Assembly (NCBI RefSeq): GCF_017571465.1
Contig: NZ_JAGETV010000020.1
Location: 1 to 43,619 of the forward strand
Length of the DNA stretch: 43,619 nucleotides
Reading direction: 5' to 3'
DNA from: Thiomicrorhabdus marina
GTDB lineage: Bacteria; Pseudomonadota; Gammaproteobacteria; Thiomicrospirales; Thiomicrospiraceae
The notes under the pieces are model-generated. The model did not search any database. It had not been told where the DNA came from and was given only the letters and a program-made list of their open reading frames with translations. The position numbers were made by a program, and so were the translations under genes. Positions 4,176 through 34,467 of this stretch are shown piece after piece (position 1 is the first letter of the stretch; each line of letters begins with the position of its first letter).

Positions 4176-6092
4176 TTACGCGATTTGATAGCCGTTCTTA
4201 TGGCTAATGGCGATAACCGTTGAGCGCGGCACATCACCATTAGGGAATGTTGATTCAATGCCCCATTCGCCCGGATGTTGAATGCCGACAAAAATCGTCT
4301 TACGGTCGTTGCTGTAGGCAAAACCTGTCACTTCCGCCCCCTTTGGCGCGACCATAAAGCGTTTAATCTCGCCGCTGTAAGGATTCGCCAATAACATCTG
4401 ACTATTACCCATACCGGCAAAATCGCCTTGGTTCGTAGTTTTGCCGTCAGTTTGAATCCAAAGCTTACCTTGGCTATCGAAATGCACACCGTCCGGTGAG
4501 TTAAACATATTACTGACATCAACGTTATCCGAACCGGCCTGCAAACCGGTTTTGTGCACGTCAGGATTACCCGCCAACACAAATAGATTCCAAATAAATT
4601 CATTGGCAGCATGATCACCCTTCTCAGGAGTCCAGCGCACAACTTGCCCATATTTATTGTCTTGACGCGGATTTGGCCCGCCGACCGGTTGCGCATCACC
4701 GCCTTTATTTGGTTTTAAACCGCGAATTTTATTATTGGTTAAAGAACAATAGACTTCGATTTTATTCGGATTCACCGCGACCCATTCCGGACGGTCCATG
4801 GTGGTTGCGCCCACTTTGGATGCCGCCTGACGAGTGTGAATACAAATTTCTGCCAAACTCATTCCGGTACTTTTCGGCGTTAGAGGCAACCAAGTACCGC
4901 TGCCGTCTTCTGCAAACTTAGCAGCATACAGAATGCCGTTTTCCATTAAATCATCAATATCCGCGTCCGCTTTAAAAACGTTGTTAGAAACATAGCGATA
5001 CAGAAATTCGCCGCGTTCATCATCGCCCATATAGACGACGATTTGCCCACTTTCGGCAATCACCATTTCCGCATTTTCATGTTTAAAACGACCTAAAGCA
5101 GTGCGTTTTTTCGGTTTGGAATTCGGGTTGCTCGGGTCAATCTCAACCACATAGCCGGAGCGGTTCGGTTCATTCATTCCTTTCGCCAAATCAAAACGTT
5201 CATCGACCTTATGCCAATCGTAACCATAACCTTGATGCGCAAGACCGTAGCGCTGTAACTCGGGACTGATCTCCAGTCCGCTATCGCTAGAAGCGTAGTA
5301 ACCATTGAAATTCTCTTCGCAGGTCAAATATGTTCCCCACGGCGTTGTTCCGCTACCGCAGTTCGCCCAAGTACCGAGCGCTTCAACACCTTGCGGATCT
5401 TGTGGCGTTTTCATTAATAAATGACCGCGTGCAGGCCCGGTAATTTCCATTGGCGTGTGTGCGGTAATACGGCGATTAAACGGCGAGTCTTGCACTATCT
5501 GCCAACCGTTTTTAACTTGTTGGATTTCAACAATCGATACCCCAACCGCTTGCTGAGTTTTCAGCACATCGTCTAAGGTTTCCGGCGCGCCGCTTTTGCG
5601 GTTGCTGAAAAAGCCCGAGAAATTCACATACTCATTATTAATTGCCAATAGCTCACGACCCTGAACAGTGAAATGCTTCATGCCGTCATTGTTATCGCCA
5701 AAGGCCAATGCTTGTTCCTCGCTTGTCAGTAGCTGTTCGGCATCAAAAGTTTTTCCTTTTGACCACATTGGCTGCCCCCAACTGACCAATGGCCGCCATT
5801 GGTAACCTTGCGGCAAGGTCACGGTATCCTCGACATTCGCCGCGACCGGTTCAAAATCGAAGACATCAAACGCTTTTGACTCTGCACTTTCAGCATTGCC
5901 AATTGACGATTTAAAAAACAGACTACTGCCAAATAACAAGGCACTGCCTTTAAAGAAATCGCGACGGCTTAACGCCTTTTCCAGCACCTCTTCAAAACCA
6001 ACCTTATCAGGTGCAGGACGAATGATTTCATCCACCCCATCATGACTTAGAGCGGTATGTTGCTGCTTGTCAAAATCGTTCTTAGCTTTCAT
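4176..6092 (-). CDS. phoX: PhoX-family (DUF839) Tat-exported alkaline phosphatase-like protein
   Basis: A protein of about 638 residues. PhoX enzymes are periplasmic or extracellular, calcium/iron-dependent phosphatases that release phosphate from organic esters. A long N-region precedes the Tat motif SRRDFFKG and a hydrophobic stretch, the normal arrangement for this family. Near residue 245 the segment WANCGSGTTPWGTYLTCEEN carries the conserved metal-site Cys and Glu pair. VVYMGDDERGEFLYRY and the FDSQGKLWIQTDG segment are further family blocks. I chose the ATG at 6092 (GTGAG 7 nt upstream) over an in-frame GTG four codons earlier. It lies 54 nt downstream of the outer-membrane barrel gene and is probably cotranscribed with it. 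Substrate specificity is inferred from family. Confidence 0.9.
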   Translation of the reverse strand: MKAKNDFDKQQHTALSHDGVDEIIRPAPDKVGFEEVLEKALSRRDFFKGSALLFGSSLFFKSSIGNAESAESKAFDVFDFEPVAANVEDTVTLPQGYQWRPLVSWGQPMWSKGKTFDAEQLLTSEEQALAFGDNNDGMKHFTVQGRELLAINNEYVNFSGFFSNRKSGAPETLDDVLKTQQAVGVSIVEIQQVKNGWQIVQDSPFNRRITAHTPMEITGPARGHLLMKTPQDPQGVEALGTWANCGSGTTPWGTYLTCEENFNGYYASSDSGLEISPELQRYGLAHQGYGYDWHKVDERFDLAKGMNEPNRSGYVVEIDPSNPNSKPKKRTALGRFKHENAEMVIAESGQIVVYMGDDERGEFLYRYVSNNVFKADADIDDLMENGILYAAKFAEDGSGTWLPLTPKSTGMSLAEICIHTRQAASKVGATTMDRPEWVAVNPNKIEVYCSLTNNKIRGLKPNKGGDAQPVGGPNPRQDNKYGQVVRWTPEKGDHAANEFIWNLFVLAGNPDVHKTGLQAGSDNVDVSNMFNSPDGVHFDSQGKLWIQTDGKTTNQGDFAGMGNSQMLLANPYSGEIKRFMVAPKGAEVTGFAYSNDRKTIFVGIQHPGEWGIESTFPNGDVPRSTVIAISHKNGYQIA

Positions 6093-6146
6093 GTTCAAAC
6101 TCACTGCGGTTGGTTATGGCAAATAAGCGCTTATTTTGCCAGATTT

Positions 6147-7214
6147 TTAAAAGCGGTAGTAAACAGACAAGGCACCCGCTAAAGTTCTGGCGGTGTTCGG
6201 ATTAAATTCATCGGCAATCAACTGTACTTTCAACCAGTCATTGTTATATCCCAATTCAATCGCTTCAGCGCTAAGGTTATATCCGATACGGAAATTATGC
6301 GTGCCGTACTGGTAAAGGTAGCTACTGCTAAAGAAACCCTTGATGGCATAGTAGTTATAATCGAAGCGTATACGATGGTTTTCAAAAAAGCGGTATTCAC
6401 TATTCACAAACACCTTTGCCGGAATATCCTGAGTTAAGTGCTCATTGCTCTCCAAGCCGCTGTTAGTCGTGTATTCAAAGAGATTATCGCCCGAACCACG
6501 AACCGCTTCGCCGGTATAAATAGTGCGCGGCGCCTGATCCCAATAGATTGCCGCAAACAGATCTTTAACCGCTAAGCCCGCCGACCAGTTTTCCGTGACT
6601 TGTCCTCCTACGGCAAAATCGATAGCGTAACCATGCCCTTCCGGCTTTTGTTGCACATCACGATCAAACAGCACATCATTGTCATAGTAGTAATCTACAT
6701 CCAAAGCAAGATGGTAATCCGCATTACTATCGTATTCAGCTGTCGATTGGTAAGAGCCATAAGTCATACGATGCGCTTGCAAATAAGACAAATCAAGTTG
6801 CCAATCAAATTTTTGCCAACGACCCTGATAACCGAGCTTCAAACCGGTCGCGGTAAAAAAGTTAGTATCGATATTGATGTCATAAACACGGTCGGTTTCA
6901 ATCGGTAATTGGTTGACCGCTAAATAATAGAATTCAGCCGTATCGCCGGGAAACTCCAACAACATATCGCTGCGCACAAATAAACCGAGCGACCATTGAT
7001 CCTTGCTAAAACCGATTTCGGCACGATTTAAAGAAATCGCTTGGTCACCGTTGTACAATTGTCCTTGCCAGTCCCCAGCAAATTCAAAAATCGCCATTGG
7101 CTCGCTATGGTTAAACCCTTCAACTTCAAAATAAACTTGGTAATCAGCCGCAGAGACATTCAATGCAGTGAAGCTTAGAAGCGGAAATAAAAATTTAGAT
7201 AAGTGCTGTTTCAT
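6147..7214 (-). CDS. Putative outer-membrane beta-barrel protein
   Basis: A 355-residue protein with a clear Sec signal peptide (KQHLSKFLFPLLSFTALNVSA, cleavage near residue 22). The mature part is rich in alternating aromatic and polar segments and ends in ...LSVYYRF; a terminal aromatic residue is typical of outer-membrane barrels recognised by BamA. I do not recognise a specific porin family. It immediately precedes the phoX-like gene on the same strand (54 nt to the chosen start), so it may aid secretion of, or substrate entry for, that enzyme; this is inference. The Shine-Dalgarno is weak (TGAG). No space is left for a promoter between its start and the terminator at 7235-7275. Confidence 0.65.
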   Translation of the reverse strand: MKQHLSKFLFPLLSFTALNVSAADYQVYFEVEGFNHSEPMAIFEFAGDWQGQLYNGDQAISLNRAEIGFSKDQWSLGLFVRSDMLLEFPGDTAEFYYLAVNQLPIETDRVYDINIDTNFFTATGLKLGYQGRWQKFDWQLDLSYLQAHRMTYGSYQSTAEYDSNADYHLALDVDYYYDNDVLFDRDVQQKPEGHGYAIDFAVGGQVTENWSAGLAVKDLFAAIYWDQAPRTIYTGEAVRGSGDNLFEYTTNSGLESNEHLTQDIPAKVFVNSEYRFFENHRIRFDYNYYAIKGFFSSSYLYQYGTHNFRIGYNLSAEAIELGYNNDWLKVQLIADEFNPNTARTLAGALSVYYRF

Positions 7215-7309: not shown

Positions 7310-9523
7310 TTACAGGAATTCGAAAGAACCGTCTTTATAGCTCACTTTGATTAGACCACTATCAGTTTCTTCGATAACACCTACCGTCAGACCATCGACC
7401 ATAATATGCGCGATTTCACCGGCAGCATAGGAATCATTAACTATCAACTGAGTACCGTTTTGGTCAGTAATCACAATATCTTCGTTGATTGAAGCAATCA
7501 TGATGTCATAGATAATTGCCATCGCATCCGCTTTGGTGGTTGCCAAGGTAACAGCAGTATCAAGCGTTAAAGAGCGTTCACCCTGACGTAGAGTCAGGCT
7601 AGTTTCGCCGGTACGCAATGCCGTACGATTACTTTCTAGAGAAACGGTAACATCCGACAATTCACCAAGGTCTAACGCAAAAACTAGACTTGCATTAAAT
7701 GCCATAAATGCATCCGCCGTTTCGTCAATCAAGTGATTATTATCCGCATCGTAGAAATCAGCAATATCCGGCAAGCTCGCCGAAAAACTTAAATCCGTTG
7801 CTTGCTCTCCGGCAGTCACAGAACCGCTGAAAGAGAAAGATTTCGGTAACGCCACAGCTTTAACCAAATATTCACCGGCGTTTTGGGTTTGCTGTTCGCT
7901 ATAGTAAGTTGCGAAATCACTCGAAATAGTCCCACCGAAAACCACATCACTACTCTCTGAAGTCGCAACCGTCAAACTAACACCAGATTGAAAATCAACC
8001 GCTAAAGAACCATCTGTCAAAGTCGAATCGCTCGCACCATTAATAGCAAGAGACAAAGCGCTGTCTTCTAACTCAAGAACGGTCGAAGACGTGACAATGA
8101 CACCGTTCGCAGCGGAAGTCGAAAGTTCAAAATTTACACTGCTATCCGAATCCAGATAATTACCGGTAAAACTCAATGTCAGATTAACCAACTGAGAACC
8201 GGTATCCGCATCGGTAAAAGTCAAAGTTCCCGAGAAATCGCCCGTCTCGCTATCGTTTGCAGCGCTAATGCTTACCGAGCCTGAATCGAACTCGAAATCA
8301 TCGTCTTCGGTAAAGGTCTTGTTTTCATCAAGTTGACCGTTTTCGTCAAATTTTAGTGACTGAATCGCTGAAGACAGAACATTAAACACATGAACCATTG
8401 AAACAACTGGATTATCTGCCGTTTCCAAGTTATTTAGCAAAGTTACCGCCGAATCGACTTCGGTGGTAAAGCTAGTACCGAAATTCGGATCGGTAATGGT
8501 CGCTTCGGTGTTTTGTGCATAATCGCGAATATCAGCAACCAAAGCCTTAGCTTTACCGACGGCGTCTGCGGTAGCCGAATCTAATGGCGTATTCGGAACG
8601 CTTCCGGAACCGGAATTATCTGCATCATCTTGCAAATCCTTAAAGGCTTCATCTACATTGGCATTATTAATGCCGGCATGCTCCATCGTTCGTTTCGCCT
8701 GATCAATAATGTCTTGTAAAGAGATAGCTTGGTCGGATTCATCCGTTCCAACTAACGAGCCTGTGTCAATATAAGAACTGATCAGTTTCACCATCTCTTC
8801 CTGCAAGGTTGTACCGTTATCCTTGGCAAGATTAGCTAAGGCTGCCGAAAGTGCTGCCAACACAATTGCCTGATCGTCAACCGCATTGGCATCGGTGATA
8901 TCGGCTGGAAATACATTGAGAATATTTAGGTTTAATAAAGCGCTGACTTCTGCATTGGCCAAAAGAATTGCAGCGGCATCGAAATTTGCCGTAGCTTTGG
9001 CTTTTTCAGCAGCCATGTGAGAAAACGGTGTGATACTCACTTTAATTTCATGTGCATTCGATTGCGCTTTATCTAGCAAGGCTGTCATCAAGAAAGCGCC
9101 GGCGCCCGGTTTAAACCATTCACCGAAATCAATTATTCCATTATTATCTTCGATGCCATCATCGGATGGACGGTCGCCACAGCCTTCGACTGCATCACAT
9201 TTCATTTGCGAATCTTCATCCAAAGACAAAGTAATTTGAAGCGGGCCGCCGCCATAATTACCCGGAATAGTTACGCTGTAAAAACCATTTTCATCGGTGT
9301 CGACTGATGTAAACGTTCTTAGTGTTTGCTTAGCCGCCCCTAACTCTTGAACAGAAATTACGCCGTTCTTTACGATCCCTTTAGCAGCGACACCGGAAAC
9401 GGTTGCGCCGGAAAATTCTGTATTAGTGTCATTATCGGAACCGGAAAAACATCCAGAAAGGCTTACAGAAGCGGCAATAATCGCTGACCCGAGAATTGAG
9501 CGTTTGAAAAATTTAGTGGTCAT
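7310..9523 (-). CDS. Large surface or periplasmic lipoprotein of unknown function
   Basis: 737 residues, not recognised. The signal ends in a lipobox (SLSGC, C25). Residues 40-105 (SGATVSGVAAKG...ENGFYSVTIPG) look like a small carboxypeptidase-regulatory or Ig-like beta domain. An alpha-helical Ala-rich middle follows (about 160-400). The C-terminal half is Ser/Thr/Asp-rich and beta-like (repeated S-x-S and D-S patterns), which suggests a secreted adhesin-like or scaffold region. Four cysteines are clear in the N-terminal part. AGGATG is spaced correctly before the ATG. It diverges from the PhoX-like lipoprotein gene at 9938, sharing the 414-nt intergenic region. Role in the phosphatase cluster is guesswork. 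Confidence 0.7.
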   Translation of the reverse strand: MTTKFFKRSILGSAIIAASVSLSGCFSGSDNDTNTEFSGATVSGVAAKGIVKNGVISVQELGAAKQTLRTFTSVDTDENGFYSVTIPGNYGGGPLQITLSLDEDSQMKCDAVEGCGDRPSDDGIEDNNGIIDFGEWFKPGAGAFLMTALLDKAQSNAHEIKVSITPFSHMAAEKAKATANFDAAAILLANAEVSALLNLNILNVFPADITDANAVDDQAIVLAALSAALANLAKDNGTTLQEEMVKLISSYIDTGSLVGTDESDQAISLQDIIDQAKRTMEHAGINNANVDEAFKDLQDDADNSGSGSVPNTPLDSATADAVGKAKALVADIRDYAQNTEATITDPNFGTSFTTEVDSAVTLLNNLETADNPVVSMVHVFNVLSSAIQSLKFDENGQLDENKTFTEDDDFEFDSGSVSISAANDSETGDFSGTLTFTDADTGSQLVNLTLSFTGNYLDSDSSVNFELSTSAANGVIVTSSTVLELEDSALSLAINGASDSTLTDGSLAVDFQSGVSLTVATSESSDVVFGGTISSDFATYYSEQQTQNAGEYLVKAVALPKSFSFSGSVTAGEQATDLSFSASLPDIADFYDADNNHLIDETADAFMAFNASLVFALDLGELSDVTVSLESNRTALRTGETSLTLRQGERSLTLDTAVTLATTKADAMAIIYDIMIASINEDIVITDQNGTQLIVNDSYAAGEIAHIMVDGLTVGVIEETDSGLIKVSYKDGSFEFL

Positions 9524-9937: not shown

Positions 9938-11830
9938 ATGAAACTTAATAAGCTATCTATTGCTTTAGCGACCGTGCTTACAGGAAGTACGCTTTCTTTA
10001 GTAGGCTGTATTGACGAATCCGTTCTAGTCACAACACCTACCACAGAAACAGAAGTAAAAGCGGTTCAATCAGTCGAATTCACTAGCACGCCAGCACCTA
10101 GCACTGCTGAAGAAATGGCTATGACTTATACCACTTCTAAAGCTATCGTTAAGTATGAAGACGGTACTTCAGAAACTTTCGATCTTGAGTACGAAAAACT
10201 ATTCACGACTCTAGATACTGTTGGTAACAACGCCTACCCAGCTGGTCAGCTTTATGACATGGACGGCTCACCGCTTTTCGATCCAAACGGCGCGCCACTT
10301 CTAGCCGAAACACCTGACTCAAACAGCCTACTTAAAGTTGGCGATAACATCTTCCTAGTTTCTCACCTTGAATATGACTGGCTATATGCTGACGGTACTC
10401 GTGCTTCTTCGCGTGCGCCAATGGGTATGCTGCAAACTTCGATCTCGCAAGATGCTGCAACCGGTGATCTTGATGCAGTTGACCAAAAACCAATCGACTT
10501 CTCTGGTGTTGACGGTCTATGGATTCCATGTTTCGGTTCACAAACACCTTGGAACACTCACCTAGGTTCGGAAGAAGATTACGACATGCAGTACAACCCG
10601 CTAAACAGCAGCTACTCACGCACTGAAGCGGCAATCGAAGTCATGTCTAGCATGTACTTCAACAACACGAAAACGGCTAACCCTTACCACTATGGTTACT
10701 TCCCTGAAGTAACAGTTAACGAAGACGGTTCAAACGAAGTCGTTAAGCACTATTCAATGGGTCGCGGTACTTGGGAAGCAGGTAAAGTCATGCCGGATTC
10801 ACGCACGGTTTACTACGGTGACGACGGTACTAACGTTGCACTATTCATGTACGTTGCTGACACAGCAGGCGACCTATCTTCTGGCTCTCTATACGCTGGT
10901 AAAGTCGCTCAAACCGGTGATTACGCAGGAAATATGTCTTGGATTAAACTTGGCTCAGCGACGGATACTGAAGTTAAAACGCTAGCGGACAACAATACTT
11001 TTGATGACATTTTCTACAATGCTGCATTCGATACAGCAACTGAAACTTGTCCAGCTGTTGACGGCGTCCAAACAACACATGTTCGTGCCGGTTCAACTTT
11101 CGATGAATGTCTAGCCGTTAAACCTGGTAAAGAACAAGCAGCCGCTTTCCTAGAGTCACGTCGTTACGCAGCACTGAAAGGTGCTACCGTTGAGTGGAAC
11201 AAAATGGAAGGTATCGCGGTTAACTCTGGCGACAACAAACTTTACATGGCAATCTCTTACCTAGATAAAGGCATGCTTGACCAAGGTCTTCCAGCAGACA
11301 TGGAACACCTAAAAATGGCGAAAGTAAACGCTGGTGCAACCTTCACTATGCCAATGCAAGCGGGTCAAGTAGACAGCGACAGCAACGCAATCAACTCGAA
11401 CCACGTAGTGACTTCTTTCATGGTTGAAGACTTACTAATGGGTCGCGATATCGCAACTGATGCACTAGGTAACACTGCAGATCCTAACTACATCGCAAAC
11501 ACAGATAACATCGCGTTCTCTGACAAGATGCGCACTCTGTTTGTCGGTGAAGACTCTGGTACTCACGTAAACAACTTCGTATGGGCATACAACGTCGATA
11601 CTAAGCAACTTTCTCGTATCTTGACTAACGTAGCCGGTGCAGAAGCAACGGGTCTGCAAGTTGTTGACGATATAAACGGTTATGCATACATCATGTCTAA
11701 CTCGCAACACCACGGTGACTACATCAGCTCAATGAACGCTGACGTTGAAGCGGCGGTTGAAGCAACTGGTAAAATCAATAAATTTGATGCTAACTTCGGT
11801 TATATCAAAGGGATGCCAGCTATCAAATAA
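9938..11830 (+). CDS. PhoX-like (DUF839) lipoprotein, probably highly expressed
   Basis: A 630-residue lipoprotein (lipobox LVGC, C24). WIPCFGSQTPWNTHLGSEED at 195-214 aligns with the PhoX metal block of the gene at 4176, keeping the first Cys (C198) and two acidic residues (E212, E213). Later blocks also align: TVYYGDDGTNVALFMYVAD with VVYMGDDERGEFLYRY, and KMEGIAVN with PEWVAVN. It is therefore a diverged DUF839 member, membrane-anchored rather than Tat-exported. Phosphatase activity is plausible but not shown. Codon use is strongly biased (CTA for Leu, GGT, CGT, AAC), like rpmB and the peroxiredoxin gene in this window and unlike the cytochrome gene downstream, so high expression is likely. 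A dihaem cytochrome lipoprotein follows, beyond a terminator. Confidence 0.82.
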   Translation: MKLNKLSIALATVLTGSTLSLVGCIDESVLVTTPTTETEVKAVQSVEFTSTPAPSTAEEMAMTYTTSKAIVKYEDGTSETFDLEYEKLFTTLDTVGNNAYPAGQLYDMDGSPLFDPNGAPLLAETPDSNSLLKVGDNIFLVSHLEYDWLYADGTRASSRAPMGMLQTSISQDAATGDLDAVDQKPIDFSGVDGLWIPCFGSQTPWNTHLGSEEDYDMQYNPLNSSYSRTEAAIEVMSSMYFNNTKTANPYHYGYFPEVTVNEDGSNEVVKHYSMGRGTWEAGKVMPDSRTVYYGDDGTNVALFMYVADTAGDLSSGSLYAGKVAQTGDYAGNMSWIKLGSATDTEVKTLADNNTFDDIFYNAAFDTATETCPAVDGVQTTHVRAGSTFDECLAVKPGKEQAAAFLESRRYAALKGATVEWNKMEGIAVNSGDNKLYMAISYLDKGMLDQGLPADMEHLKMAKVNAGATFTMPMQAGQVDSDSNAINSNHVVTSFMVEDLLMGRDIATDALGNTADPNYIANTDNIAFSDKMRTLFVGEDSGTHVNNFVWAYNVDTKQLSRILTNVAGAEATGLQVVDDINGYAYIMSNSQHHGDYISSMNADVEAAVEATGKINKFDANFGYIKGMPAIK

Positions 11831-11850
11831 TCCATAACTTTTGGATTCTA

Positions 11851-11875
11851 AAAGCCAGCTTTATGCTGGCTTTTT
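11851..11875 (+). terminator. Terminator after the PhoX-like lipoprotein gene
   Basis: A 9-bp perfect stem (AAAGCCAGC, loop TTTAT) is followed by T residues, 20 nt past the stop codon. The dihaem cytochrome gene starts only 31 nt later, so it is probably read by partial read-through and expressed at a lower level. Confidence 0.85.
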
Positions 11876-11905
11876 GTGCACTATACAATGTAAATAGGAA
11901 TCATA

Positions 11906-13891
11906 ATGAATAACATTAAAACATCATTCCTGTTGGCTGGGATTTCACTTTTATTGACCGCTTGCGGCGATGTCACGGAGACACCAACCAACCTTATCGA
12001 TAACACCGATGAAGGTACGACAACTGCGGCAACGCAGTCGGCACTGATCGGAAGTTATATCAATCCGGTTGTCTTTGAAGGTAACCCTTACCCGCAAGTG
12101 CCGGCACAATGTCATACCGAAACCAGCCTTGGTCGCCAAAATGCCTGTCTTTTCTGTCATACCAACGGCCTTTATAAACAAGGACTGGGGAATAACAATC
12201 CGCAAGCCGGCGCCATGCCGCAAGTTAATTTTCAAATCGACTATGGTTTTGACCCCTACAGCGCGCAAGCGCCGACCGCCGCCAAAAACTACTGGTTAAA
12301 CACTCTAAGTCCAGAAACCTTGCTTGCAGCAATCACTGCTATGGATATTGATCCAAACGAATGGAACATGCAGGACTATATTCAAGAAGACAACTGGCAA
12401 GCCGCTTATAACCTAAGACTTGGCAAAAGCAGCGATTGGGACAGCGGTTACGACCAACCTTTCCGCCTATTGCCTGGCCTCAATCCGGCGGCACTACCAG
12501 CAGATAATGACGGTTTCGTACGCTCTAACGATGCCAAAGACATCTATTTCAACGATGATTTCGGAGGCAATACCGGTTGGCGCGCCATTAACTTTATGCC
12601 GTACGGCATCTTCAGTCCAATGACCGGTTCGGTTTCCGGCATTTATATTCGTCTCGCCGCACCGTTTATGCAGAACAGTTCTGGAGACTTCGACCTAGCC
12701 ATCTACCAACAGAACCTTGATCTATTACGCGATGCAATCCAAAACCGCCTGACCGAAACTTCACCGACAAACTATTTCGGCGCCGCATCGGCAATTAAAG
12801 TGGTGGCAGGAAGTTATCCGCAAGGCACAGAACTGGCACACCCGCTGCATTATGTCGACACCACTGCCGACGGAAGCAACGGTAAATTACCTGGTATGCG
12901 TGCCACTCGTGTTAAAGAAGTCCGTTATATGTATAAAGACGAAGACTTTAATCCTATGGAAGCCAGACCGGGGGACGGTACCGGTGACCAAATCTATGGC
13001 AATGATAAACAAGGTTGGGTCGACAATGGTTCCGGTTGGTTACTAGCCGGTTACATCGAAGATAAAAACGGCGATTTGCGCCCACAAACCCGACAAGAAC
13101 TTACCCAATGTATCGGCTGCCATTCAGGATTCCACTACCAGACCAAAGATCCTAACTTTACTAGCGGTACCGGAAATACTGTCGATAGTACTTGGTCATT
13201 TCCACGCGCTTTCAACTCCGATTTAGGTTGGCAGGAAATGGACTACCTCGGAACCAAGATTCGTGATGGTGTCGCTACTTCCACAACACCGGAGCCAATC
13301 AATCGTCATGCAGATATTGGCGAATTTGCTCTATTGTTAAACCATACCGTCAGTGCAAACCTTTATGGTGTAATGCCGCAATCCATTGAAGCAGGTTTGC
13401 AAACGGCGATTAATACAGAGAGTGGTTATTCCAGCAACTGGACAGCGATTAAAACCGATAATGCGGTCAATTTCGAACAGAGCGTGACCTTACGCCAAAC
13501 ACTATTACGTGAATATGTTGTTAGTAAAGACTACTTGAATCAAGACGGTACCATTAAAGGTTTCCTGCTTTATCCTGAAGCCGAGGACGCCATTGAGAAT
13601 GCTCGTCGCTATCGTCAAGTCGTTGCCACCCAGCGTTATATTTACGGTAAAGATGTATTTTCGGAAACGCCGATTAGCTACCTCCACTACCGTGATTCCT
13701 CAATTGCAGAAGTAAAGAACGACGGTACGCCTTATCAGTTTGGCGAAATCATTAGCGAGCGCTCTATTCAATTGGATGAACCGACTCGCTTTGACTATAA
13801 AGCCGGAGACGGCATCACACTAATTGAAGAAGATAAACCATTTAACGAAGGCGGTACCTACTTCCCAGATTATGTGCCTTATCTTCAGTAA
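11906..13891 (+). CDS. Dihaem c-type cytochrome lipoprotein of unrecognised family
   Basis: 661 residues with lipobox LTAC (C20) and two haem-binding sites, CLFCH at 81-85 and CIGCH at 402-406, separated by about 320 residues. An extra QCH at 69-70 precedes the first haem. The large Trp/Tyr/Asn-rich domains between and after the haems match no family I know. It is not a MauG/CcpA peroxidase (no recognisable motifs) nor a standard class I cytochrome. It follows the PhoX-like lipoprotein gene by 75 nt with a terminator between. AGGAAT precedes the ATG. An electron-transfer function at the inner or outer membrane facing the periplasm or the outside is inferred from the haem motifs and lipid anchor; the partner is unknown. 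Confidence 0.75.
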   Translation: MNNIKTSFLLAGISLLLTACGDVTETPTNLIDNTDEGTTTAATQSALIGSYINPVVFEGNPYPQVPAQCHTETSLGRQNACLFCHTNGLYKQGLGNNNPQAGAMPQVNFQIDYGFDPYSAQAPTAAKNYWLNTLSPETLLAAITAMDIDPNEWNMQDYIQEDNWQAAYNLRLGKSSDWDSGYDQPFRLLPGLNPAALPADNDGFVRSNDAKDIYFNDDFGGNTGWRAINFMPYGIFSPMTGSVSGIYIRLAAPFMQNSSGDFDLAIYQQNLDLLRDAIQNRLTETSPTNYFGAASAIKVVAGSYPQGTELAHPLHYVDTTADGSNGKLPGMRATRVKEVRYMYKDEDFNPMEARPGDGTGDQIYGNDKQGWVDNGSGWLLAGYIEDKNGDLRPQTRQELTQCIGCHSGFHYQTKDPNFTSGTGNTVDSTWSFPRAFNSDLGWQEMDYLGTKIRDGVATSTTPEPINRHADIGEFALLLNHTVSANLYGVMPQSIEAGLQTAINTESGYSSNWTAIKTDNAVNFEQSVTLRQTLLREYVVSKDYLNQDGTIKGFLLYPEAEDAIENARRYRQVVATQRYIYGKDVFSETPISYLHYRDSSIAEVKNDGTPYQFGEIISERSIQLDEPTRFDYKAGDGITLIEEDKPFNEGGTYFPDYVPYLQ

Positions 13892-14529: not shown

Positions 14530-14552
14530 TCTTACCCAGATTATGTTGAGAG

Positions 14553-14581
14553 ACCCGATCCACAAGATCGGGTTTTTTTTT
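14553..14581 (+). terminator. Terminator of rpmB-rpmG
   Basis: CCCGATC and GATCGGG enclose CACAA and are followed by nine T. It starts 25 nt past the rpmG stop codon. Confidence 0.95.
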
Positions 14582-32721: not shown

Positions 32722-34467
32722 ATGTTGCATATCGAACAAGCGCTCACTGGAAAGTGGCCAAACCTAGCCAATAATCCGGCCTATCCGCTGATTATCAAAC
32801 TGCTGAAAAAACTCCTGCACGAAAAAGAAATCAACGACTTTATCGAACAGAATCAGCATCTGCGCGGCTTTGCTTTTCTTGATCAGGTGCTGGCACACTT
32901 TGATTTCAGTTATCAGGTAAACAGCCAACAACTGCAACGGATTCCTGCGGAAGGCAAAGTGATCATTGTCGCCAACCACCCTATCGGCTCACTGGATGGT
33001 TTAGCGCTATTGAAATTGGTGCGTTCGGTGCGCGCCGATGTGCGCATCGTCGCCAATGATTTACTCTCCAATATCGAACCATTACAAGATCTTTTCTTGC
33101 CCGTCGATAATATGGCGAGTAACCAACATAAAGCGGCATTTAAAGCGATGTTAAATGCGCTAGAAGGCGAACAAGCCGTGATTATTTTTCCGGCCGGAGA
33201 AGTGTCGCGGATTCGTCCCAATGGCGTTAAAGACGGCGCTTGGAAAAGCGGCTTTTTAAAACTGGCGCAACGTAGCCAAGCACCGGTTCTTCCAATTCAA
33301 ATTGATGCCCGCAACTCCAGCTTGTTTTATGCGCTATCAACCCTATACAAGCCACTTGGTTCGCTATTTTTAGTGCAAGAAATGTTTAATAAAACCGCAC
33401 AGAAGATCGAGTTTCATATCGGTAAACCCATTTCTGCCGAGACATTGCAAAAAGCGGTCAAGGAAAGTTCGGTTAAAGTGGTCGCCAAGCAGTTCCGTAA
33501 GTACCTATATCGCTTGGCTAAACCAAAAAGACTTAATAAAAAGCCGTTTTTACCAACCATTGAAACCATTGCGCACCCGATTGATCGCAAGGCATTAAAA
33601 CAAGCGATTCATCAAGGTCAGTTATTAGGCGAAACTAATGACCGCAAGAAAATCTATCTGTTTGACTTTGATGCTAACTCACCGGTGATGCAAGAAATTG
33701 GCCGCCTGCGCGAACTGACCTTTCGCAGCGTACAAGAAGGAACCGGCAAAAGCTCAGACCTTGACCACTATGACGCACTGTATCAGCATCTGGTTTTATG
33801 GGATGAAAGTGAATGGGAAATCGTCGGCGCTTACCGACTGGGGCAAGGCACCCACCCACAACAAGATAGACTAAAAACCGATGCAGAAATCTACAGCGCC
33901 AGTCTGTTTGACTTTAAACCAAGTATCCATGCAGAATTGCAAAATTGCTTGGAACTTGGCCGCAGTTTTGTACAACCAAAATACTGGGGAAAACGCAGTC
34001 TGGATTATCTGTGGTTCGGTATCGGTGCTTATCTCAAACAGCACCCGAATATCCAATATATGTTCGGGCCTGTCAGCCTTAGCAACGCCTATCCGCAAAA
34101 TGCTAAAGAGTTAATCGCCGCTTTCTATTTGCAGCAATTCGGCGATTACCAATCACTGGTGCAAGCGCGCCAACCATTTGCGATTAGCGAGGAAAGCCTA
34201 GCAATAGCTAAGCAAGAATTTAGCAGTGACTACAGTGCAAGTTTGAAAAAGCTTAATGCGCTTTTAGCTTTGGAAGGCGTAAAACTCCCAACCTTATTTA
34301 AACAGTATGCCGAACTGTGCGATGACAAAGGTTGCCGTTTTATCGACTTCAACATCGACCCGCTGTTCGCCGATTGCATCGATGCCTTTATCTTTGTCGA
34401 TATCAGCAAAGTCAAAGACAAAAAACGCCAACGTTATATGGGTGAAGCAAAAATCTCAGTCGCATAA
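32722..34467 (+). CDS. olsF: Bifunctional ornithine-lipid type acyltransferase (OlsF-like)
   Basis: 581 residues: an N-terminal PlsC-like lyso-lipid acyltransferase domain (about 50-260) with ANHPIGSLDG (H86, D92) and FPAGEVSR, and a C-terminal OlsB-like, GNAT-type N-acyltransferase domain (about 310-500; MQEIGRLRELTFR, ELGRSFVQPKYWGKRSLDYLW). A protein with both domains can make ornithine or other amino lipids from an acyl-ACP, as does OlsF. Such phosphorus-free lipids often replace phospholipids during phosphate shortage, and a Pho-box-like site precedes the gene. AGAGGTGA lies before the ATG. The amino acid substrate is inferred from the family. Confidence 0.83.
   Translation: MLHIEQALTGKWPNLANNPAYPLIIKLLKKLLHEKEINDFIEQNQHLRGFAFLDQVLAHFDFSYQVNSQQLQRIPAEGKVIIVANHPIGSLDGLALLKLVRSVRADVRIVANDLLSNIEPLQDLFLPVDNMASNQHKAAFKAMLNALEGEQAVIIFPAGEVSRIRPNGVKDGAWKSGFLKLAQRSQAPVLPIQIDARNSSLFYALSTLYKPLGSLFLVQEMFNKTAQKIEFHIGKPISAETLQKAVKESSVKVVAKQFRKYLYRLAKPKRLNKKPFLPTIETIAHPIDRKALKQAIHQGQLLGETNDRKKIYLFDFDANSPVMQEIGRLRELTFRSVQEGTGKSSDLDHYDALYQHLVLWDESEWEIVGAYRLGQGTHPQQDRLKTDAEIYSASLFDFKPSIHAELQNCLELGRSFVQPKYWGKRSLDYLWFGIGAYLKQHPNIQYMFGPVSLSNAYPQNAKELIAAFYLQQFGDYQSLVQARQPFAISEESLAIAKQEFSSDYSASLKKLNALLALEGVKLPTLFKQYAELCDDKGCRFIDFNIDPLFADCIDAFIFVDISKVKDKKRQRYMGEAKISVA

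Follow-up and report, generated by a model that had tools for sequence, protein, structure and literature searches.

The stretch analysed here, hereafter the window, comprises the 43,619 nucleotides of Thiomicrorhabdus marina contig NZ_JAGETV010000020.1 (RefSeq assembly GCF_017571465.1; positions 1 to 43,619, forward strand). It contains two genes on the same strand, separated by 75 nt, encoding a lipoprotein of the PhoX/DUF839 branch (here PHX) and a dihaem lipoprotein (here CYT). The open reading frames (ORFs) are as a first-pass annotation of the window had described them, and both proteins have a lipobox. The features of the pair are:

9938..11830, + strand: PHX, PhoX/DUF839-branch lipoprotein of 630 amino acids (aa); ORF with a Sec lipoprotein signal
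10007..10009, + strand: lipobox cysteine of PHX, residue 24
10529..10531, + strand: Cys198 of PHX, aligned with the cysteine of PflPhoX at 3zwu chain index 179
11906..13891, + strand: CYT, dihaem lipoprotein of 661 aa; ORF of no named family
11963..11965, + strand: lipobox cysteine of CYT, residue 20
12146..12160, + strand: first haem-binding CxxCH of CYT, residues 81-85, with the conserved Cys69 12 residues earlier
12815..13126, + strand: P460/cytochrome c'-beta-like region of CYT, residues 304-407, with weak matches throughout
13109..13123, + strand: second haem-binding CxxCH of CYT, residues 402-406

PHX and CYT form a conserved pair. Among 58 related genomes, that of the window included, CYT was found in 24 and PHX in the same 24, and in 22 of these the two genes are same-strand neighbours; in the remaining two, they lie about 7.7 kb apart (G032; G and L numbers are our labels for genomes and fetched loci) or on separate contigs (G049). 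A scan of GTDB genomes gave at least 500 pattern matches, of which 496 encode a relative of CYT, and the best 80 provided 79 named loci, in which the pair recurs across named genomes of several classes. Over all fetched loci, we counted 109 full-length CYT (>540 aa, leaving aside the shorter paired L175, L176 and L178 and the CYT in pieces of L050 and L095): a same-strand PHX was directly upstream of 81 by script (median gap 82 nt), 17 had no upstream PHX despite sufficient room and 11 had little room, so that adjacency reaches 82/109 once L118, with its over-long ORF start, is added. By subset, adjacency in the named loci L067-L133 was 51/60 (4 without room; L118 counted as non-adjacent), and 8/14 (3 without room) in a class sample of 369 genomes, searched for CYT at E≤1e-10 and PHX at E≤1e-20, scoring up to three candidates in each genome. 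Metagenome-assembled genome (MAG) records labelled Phycisphaerales (L097) and Desulfocapsa (L116) also carry the pair. Given that the two genes are conserved as a pair and that CYT falls in no named family, the first-pass proposal that these two genes belong together stands. What is new here is a PhoX-like side branch with an unexplained conserved redox partner; no description of this PhoX-like/cytochrome pair was found in the open-licence PMC literature.

The distances within the PHX and CYT trees are in strong agreement (Mantel r 0.90 over the 81 pairs, which represent 80 distinct proteins per side; 0/2000 permutations as high). These matching trees are not a proof of contact because genes inherited together also agree. 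Indeed, ordinary co-transcription, in which independent periplasmic or surface proteins would share a promoter without any functional contact, would suit the existence of both PHX alone and CYT alone. Nevertheless, the 82/109 adjacency across classes speaks against it, as do the matching trees, with the reservation just given, and we consider this explanation improbable.

Several arrangements of the pair deserve mention. Two PHX-branch genes in tandem precede a single CYT in L049, L062, L063, L064 and L069, and two Rhodoferax MAGs (L086 and L087) present two complete convergent PHX-CYT pairs beside PhoD and a nucleotidase-like protein. CYT is split over two pieces in L050 (G018), and both PHX and CYT are in pieces in L095, either of which could be a decaying pair or a faulty sequence.

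In the class sample, CYT was found in 19/369 genomes and PHX in 26/369, with both in 16 and CYT only in three (G124, G285, and G303). Many of the named hosts are sulfur oxidisers, which raises the idea that the pair acts in extracellular sulfur metabolism, its phosphate context (described below) being secondary. SoxB is indeed present in 13/19 CYT-bearing genomes against 137/350 other genomes of the sample (p 0.015, in a test that ignores kinship). However, the excess is modest and kinship confounds it, six of the 19 lack SoxB, SoxB is found in 30/32 genomes of the window's genus regardless of the pair, and the annotated neighbours include no recognised Sox gene. Therefore, we regard a sulfur-oxidation enzyme as very unlikely.

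The relationship of PHX to PhoX is recognisable at the levels of sequence and fold. The window PHX matches the Pfam PhoX family (PF05787) with 59 bits (cut-off 24), and its AlphaFold model (pLDDT 91.8) retrieves the PflPhoX structures 4a9v (E 1.9e-16) and 3zwu (E 3.0e-16) as the top two Foldseek matches (TM 0.58), in contrast to an identity of only about 15% in the Foldseek alignment. We aligned 83 rows of the branch (80 distinct sequences) with PflPhoX and two PhoX carrying a twin-arginine translocation (Tat) signal. The cysteine at 3zwu index 179 (C198 in the window), which we take to be the PhoX iron ligand, is C in 83/83 rows and is the sole PflPhoX cysteine retained. Every row also keeps ten acidic residues of PhoX (D109, E193, E194, E251, E273, D291, D292, E387, D479, and E532). 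PHX thus probably retains a PhoX-type metal site, as judged from these aligned positions. In contrast to PhoX, the whole branch (83/83 rows) carries K, E and H in place of R385, D494 and N499 in 3zwu numbering, and, therefore, PHX should be considered a side branch rather than PhoX proper; H370 to E, E293 to G, and N244 to Y are further substitutions found in all rows. A Tat-type RRx motif within the first 60 residues is present in only 4/81 paired PHX, and for two of these it lies in an upstream extension that is doubtful. An earlier candidate reading, a lost metal site, had taken the cysteine of the LTCEEN motif as the iron ligand; it was dropped because 3zwu numbering puts this cysteine at index 192 and index 179 is another cysteine, which is retained.

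In the accessible text of PMC4223295, PhoX is described as binding two Fe and three Ca, with a thiolate on Fe(III), and as being exported by Tat, which is there speculated to reflect iron insertion in the cytoplasm. Ten active-site residues are reported as conserved in PhoX models in the available part of PMC5768637, and DUF839 appears in that of PMC6822775 only as negatively coupled to PhoA.

Regarding the cytochrome, the two CxxCH motifs of the window CYT (residues 81 and 402) are 321 residues apart, and the protein has no Pfam or NCBIfam match above cut-off, so that, as far as these profiles go, it is a member of no named family. The nearest family is Cytochrome_P460 (PF16694; 23.8 bits, cut-off 27, residues 304-407), which is matched at E≤0.01 by 36/64 CYT members in one alignment and 22/23 in another. 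The CYT model (pLDDT 90.9) has no significant match in the PDB; its best Foldseek matches are cytochrome c'-beta 7s5o (E 0.13 and 0.20) and P460 2je2 (E 0.60). Likewise, P460 chains 9hrk (E 0.61) and 6hiu (E 0.77) are the top matches of a profile of the second haem region; the window's own second-haem stretch as a query recovered an unrelated match only, and a full-length CYT profile against the PDB a single meaningless one. Cytochrome P460 carries a haem-lysine cross-link, and P460-type cytochromes are oxidoreductases. Lys337 and Lys344 are invariant in CYT and are not alignable to the P460 lysine; Cys69 is invariant in one CYT alignment and at least 90% conserved in the other. Together, the individually weak P460 and c'-beta matches suggest that the second haem domain of CYT is P460/c'-beta-like. 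The differences should be kept in mind: the window CYT is below the family cut-off, contains two haems in 661 aa, and is unmatched over its remainder.

A conserved candidate metal site with a redox partner of a possibly oxidoreductase type could also mean that PHX oxidises reduced phosphorus, for example phosphite, at this site and passes the electrons to CYT. The branch-wide changes at R385, D494, and N499 and the Pho-box-like sites presented below would be compatible with such an enzyme. However, the same changes occur in PHX proteins that have no CYT, and the neighbours, of which only a part was annotated, include no recognised phosphite or phosphonate gene; we give this explanation only a slim chance.

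The genomic context of the pair displays features related to phosphate starvation. PhoB is encoded at L076 (TIGR02154, 331.5 bits, cut-off 296.2) and, by identity, at L123. PhoD also occurs among the neighbours, together with NAD-nucleotidase-like proteins (above the TIGR01530 cut-off at L076 and below it at L082) and with OlsA/OlsB-like, LpxH-like (which we label PlcP-like), and glycolipid-type glycosyltransferase proteins, none of which reaches its NCBIfam cut-off. The synthesis of ornithine lipids and glycolipids belongs to the response to phosphate starvation. At L048, a Tat PhoX gene is divergent and directly upstream of PHX. A recurring ModC family and a wider response-regulator group are uninformative on phosphate. 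In L127, an ORF near the pair (L127:9026-12265) encodes a fusion of a nucleotidase-like protein with a choice-of-anchor I domain.

The neighbours were clustered and only some were annotated; from these, PhoB, PhoD, nucleotidase, Ols, PlcP-like, and Tat PhoX were counted. At least one of these families occurs in 16/79 named loci (L086 and L087 being near copies) and in 0/12 loci of the range L134-L145, compared with 0/38 arbitrary stretches, hand-placed at round positions in other genomes (38 of 40 were used; L227, of 101 bases, and L228, of 2,000 bases, were dropped). Among the L067-L133 loci of at least 12 kb, the figure is 13/42 (p 8e-5), with the neighbour queries drawn from the test loci themselves; without the query-source loci, it becomes 8/37 versus 0/38 (p 0.002), and 7/36 (p 0.005) when the near-copy L086 is also removed.

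The upstream regions point in the same direction. Of the 81 pairs, 75 had usable upstreams, which were scored for two CTGTCAT-like half sites (which we take as the Pho-box consensus) arranged as a 7-4-7 repeat with an 11-bp period. A score of at least 20 is reached by 17/75 pair upstreams at the exact 11-bp period, compared with 0 to 3 at twelve other periods and with 14/349 control upstreams (Fisher p 1e-6; rank test p 1.6e-12), some of these controls being neighbours within the same phosphate loci. An earlier scoring (z>2 in 34/75 pairs versus 6/114 random positions) has been superseded by these upstream-of-gene and wrong-period controls. Over part of its range, the pair is thus linked by its gene context to phosphate starvation, and a role in phosphate acquisition appears quite likely. 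The suggestion in the first-pass annotation that this branch may not be a phosphatase finds no support, given these neighbours, the Pho-box-like sites in part of the range, and the PhoX fold with its retained cysteine and ten acidic residues.

A second recurrent association, observed in several lineages, three of them with adjacent gsp genes, is with the type II secretion system (T2SS). In L060 (G036), gspC, D, E, F, and G follow PHX-CYT at 0 bp, each above its Pfam cut-off, and a genome-wide search located GspC at the same site. In L051/L075 (one genome), the gene after CYT encodes a GspC-like protein that lacks a Pfam match, and gspD and gspE come next; in L070, a near relative, a CorA gene intervenes between CYT and the gsp genes. 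In L095, gspC, D, and E (Pfam) lie next to the pair in divergent orientation. Moreover, in Thiothrix lacustris (L076), T. caldifontis (L123), and a marine MAG (L074), CYT is extended by a C-terminal region of about 230 residues that is GspC-like, matching the periplasmic part of GspC (E 1e-10 with four GspC, 7e-8 with the ORF set) and, in L076, PDZ_6. CYT of T. eikelboomii (L073) has no such C-terminal region. The CYT-GspC-like fusions are located at:

L074:6998-9658, marine MAG
L076:6920-9529, T. lacustris
L123:6947-9646, T. caldifontis

In the window's genome, contig C15 carries GspC and, close by, a below-cut-off match to GspN. The GspE/F-like genes near L077-L079 were left out of this association; the one at L079 encodes an MshEN domain and could be a pilus gene.

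Surface lipoproteins that depend on the T2SS, including InvL, PulA, and GspD-dependent ones of Shewanella, are described in the available part of PMC12802150, and many PHX and CYT resemble them in having a lipobox followed by G/S/N/D-rich residues, together with gsp genes beside or fused with CYT in some lineages. In contrast to these proteins, many PHX and CYT members lack a lipobox, the motif enrichment is weak, and secretion is here only predicted. In a loose scan, a lipobox-like site was found in 67/95 PHX and 53/112 CYT (ORF starts are uncertain). Lipid anchoring is thus not general; the Rhodovulum members, for instance, have ordinary Sec signals. The first-pass proposal that both proteins could be anchored to the same membrane therefore fits the window proteins and does not extend to the family. 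UxpB of Pseudomonas putida is reportedly exported by the T2SS. It is described in the accessible text of PMC12700990 as an extracellular phosphatase that is Tat-exported, and it is set beside PHX by this description only. Overall, a surface location reached through the T2SS seems to us an evenly balanced possibility for the pair.

These T2SS links, with the Pho-box-like sites and the phosphate-starvation neighbours, also bear on the idea of a surface cytochrome in which CYT would reduce Fe(III) at the cell surface, freeing phosphate adsorbed to iron oxides, and PHX would hydrolyse organic phosphate nearby, the two proteins working side by side without acting on each other. T2SS-dependent surface lipoproteins such as those of Shewanella (PMC12802150, available part) make this conceivable, and phosphate-limited Pseudovibrio releases iron chelators that are proposed to dissolve iron minerals and free phosphate (PMC5348524, available part). 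However, what that text indicates is chelators, not cytochromes; CYT has only two haems; and there is no conserved electron conduit gene adjoining the pair, because no neighbour family beyond the pair itself exceeds 9/79 named loci (shadow ORFs of the pair excluded). In addition, the matching trees suit direct contact better, and a surface cytochrome of this kind appears unlikely.

The reading that we put forward, tentatively and with a confidence slightly short of even, is that the pair is a phosphate-starvation operon in which PHX is a phosphoesterase with a PhoX-type metal site and CYT its dedicated two-haem partner. The two genes would be transcribed as one operon of the phosphate-starvation response; PHX would act as an extracytoplasmic phosphoesterase, and the pair may be located at the cell surface. 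Canonical PhoX would acquire its iron in the cytoplasm before Tat exports the folded protein. Most PHX lack a Tat motif and, therefore, would have to take up their iron outside, where oxidation by CYT could bring it, or return it, to the active ferric state. Such an action of CYT on the PHX metal site by electron exchange is, in our view, the most likely mechanism, although in itself it is doubtful. PhoX-type phosphatases matter for phosphorus supply, and a cytochrome partner in a phosphate-starvation operon would, if true, tie phosphorus acquisition to electron transfer in the cell envelope. In any case, the conserved pair raises the question of why a redox protein would be involved in phosphate scavenging.

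Several observations weigh against a starvation operon with a dedicated redox partner, in addition to the branch-wide and further substitutions and to the origin of the neighbour queries given above. First, the phosphate signal is uneven. Phosphate-starvation families are rare outside the named loci (1/24 relatives and 2/17 class loci). The pair of the window itself has a Pho-box score of 16, which is background level, a stricter search of the window with an 18-mer Pho box found no match near the pair, and its long-clade relatives L043-L049 score 15.5 to 19.5, none reaching 20; in the superseded scoring, only 2/10 known phosphate genes included as positive controls exceeded z>2. Second, the thiolate-bound iron of PhoX is described as redox-inactive (PMC4223295, accessible text), which argues against redox activity in the parent PhoX family. 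Third, 10 of the 26 PHX-bearing genomes of the class sample have no CYT match, and no CYT was found in the stretches fetched from these PHX-only genomes. Nine of these ten unpaired PHX were alignable, and all nine keep C198, K422, E538, and H543 (positions 257 and 295 show single changes, and the C-terminal columns are missing from two). They are intermixed with paired ones in the tree, 2/9 with a Tat motif and 7/9 without. Since these unpaired PHX keep the branch residues, not every PHX needs CYT. The first-pass idea that the metal centre needs a redox partner may still be right, and is weakened by these ten genomes. Conversely, CYT occurs without an adjacent PHX at L085, L092, L179, L184, and L187, among others, and throughout a deep clade (L134-L139 and L141-L145; L140, a Paracoccus fragment within this range, was too short to count), where adjacent PHX was found in 0/11 loci, 4 of them without room. 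The labels of this clade are Desulfobacterales, other Deltaproteobacteria, Hydrogenedens/Hydrogenedentes, Planctomycetota, Bacteroidales, Marinilabiliaceae, Perlabentimonas, or none. Finally, GspC co-occurs with CYT in 16/19 genomes of the class sample against 212/350 others (p 0.051), and the sorting motif after the lipobox, taken from the available part of PMC12802150, is only weakly enriched relative to 70 other lipoproteins (64 PHX, p 0.016; 49 CYT, p 0.14).

A broader combination of these elements would be a surface-exposed, starvation-induced redox phosphorus system, in which a PhoX-branch metalloenzyme and a P460-like cytochrome, delivered by the T2SS, oxidise reduced phosphorus or free mineral phosphate. 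We consider it unlikely; if true, phosphorus acquisition would depend on extracytoplasmic electron transfer. Testable candidates for these readings exist among cultured Thiomicrorhabdus, Thiothrix, and Rhodovulum strains.

Distant or unusual homologues were also observed. In L200 (G274), a PHX-branch domain lies within a giant lipoprotein-like ORF (L200:11071-19000) of more than 2600 aa in the fetched stretch, a 3079-aa frame in the genome search. The Pseudoalteromonas plasmid pNC201 (L202) encodes a distant CYT homologue (29% identity over 58% of the query), found on megaplasmids in three records.

Other features of the window, given here as context, are:

4176..6104, - strand: canonical PhoX alkaline phosphatase (566 bits), 3.8 kb upstream of the pair
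14548..14578, + strand: terminator-like hairpin in the interval between CYT and the convergent gene, a consensus match only (6 such hairpins found in the window versus 5.4 expected)
32722..34467, + strand: bifunctional ornithine lipid synthase OlsF, above the NCBIfam cut-off, 19 kb downstream of the pair

Divergent from PHX, a 737-aa lipoprotein (7310-9523, - strand), G/S/N/D-rich after its lipobox, has no family above cut-off. Between it and the canonical PhoX lies a 355-aa protein without family (6147-7214, - strand), a relative of which (29% identity) is found at L051:12-965, the CYT region of G032.

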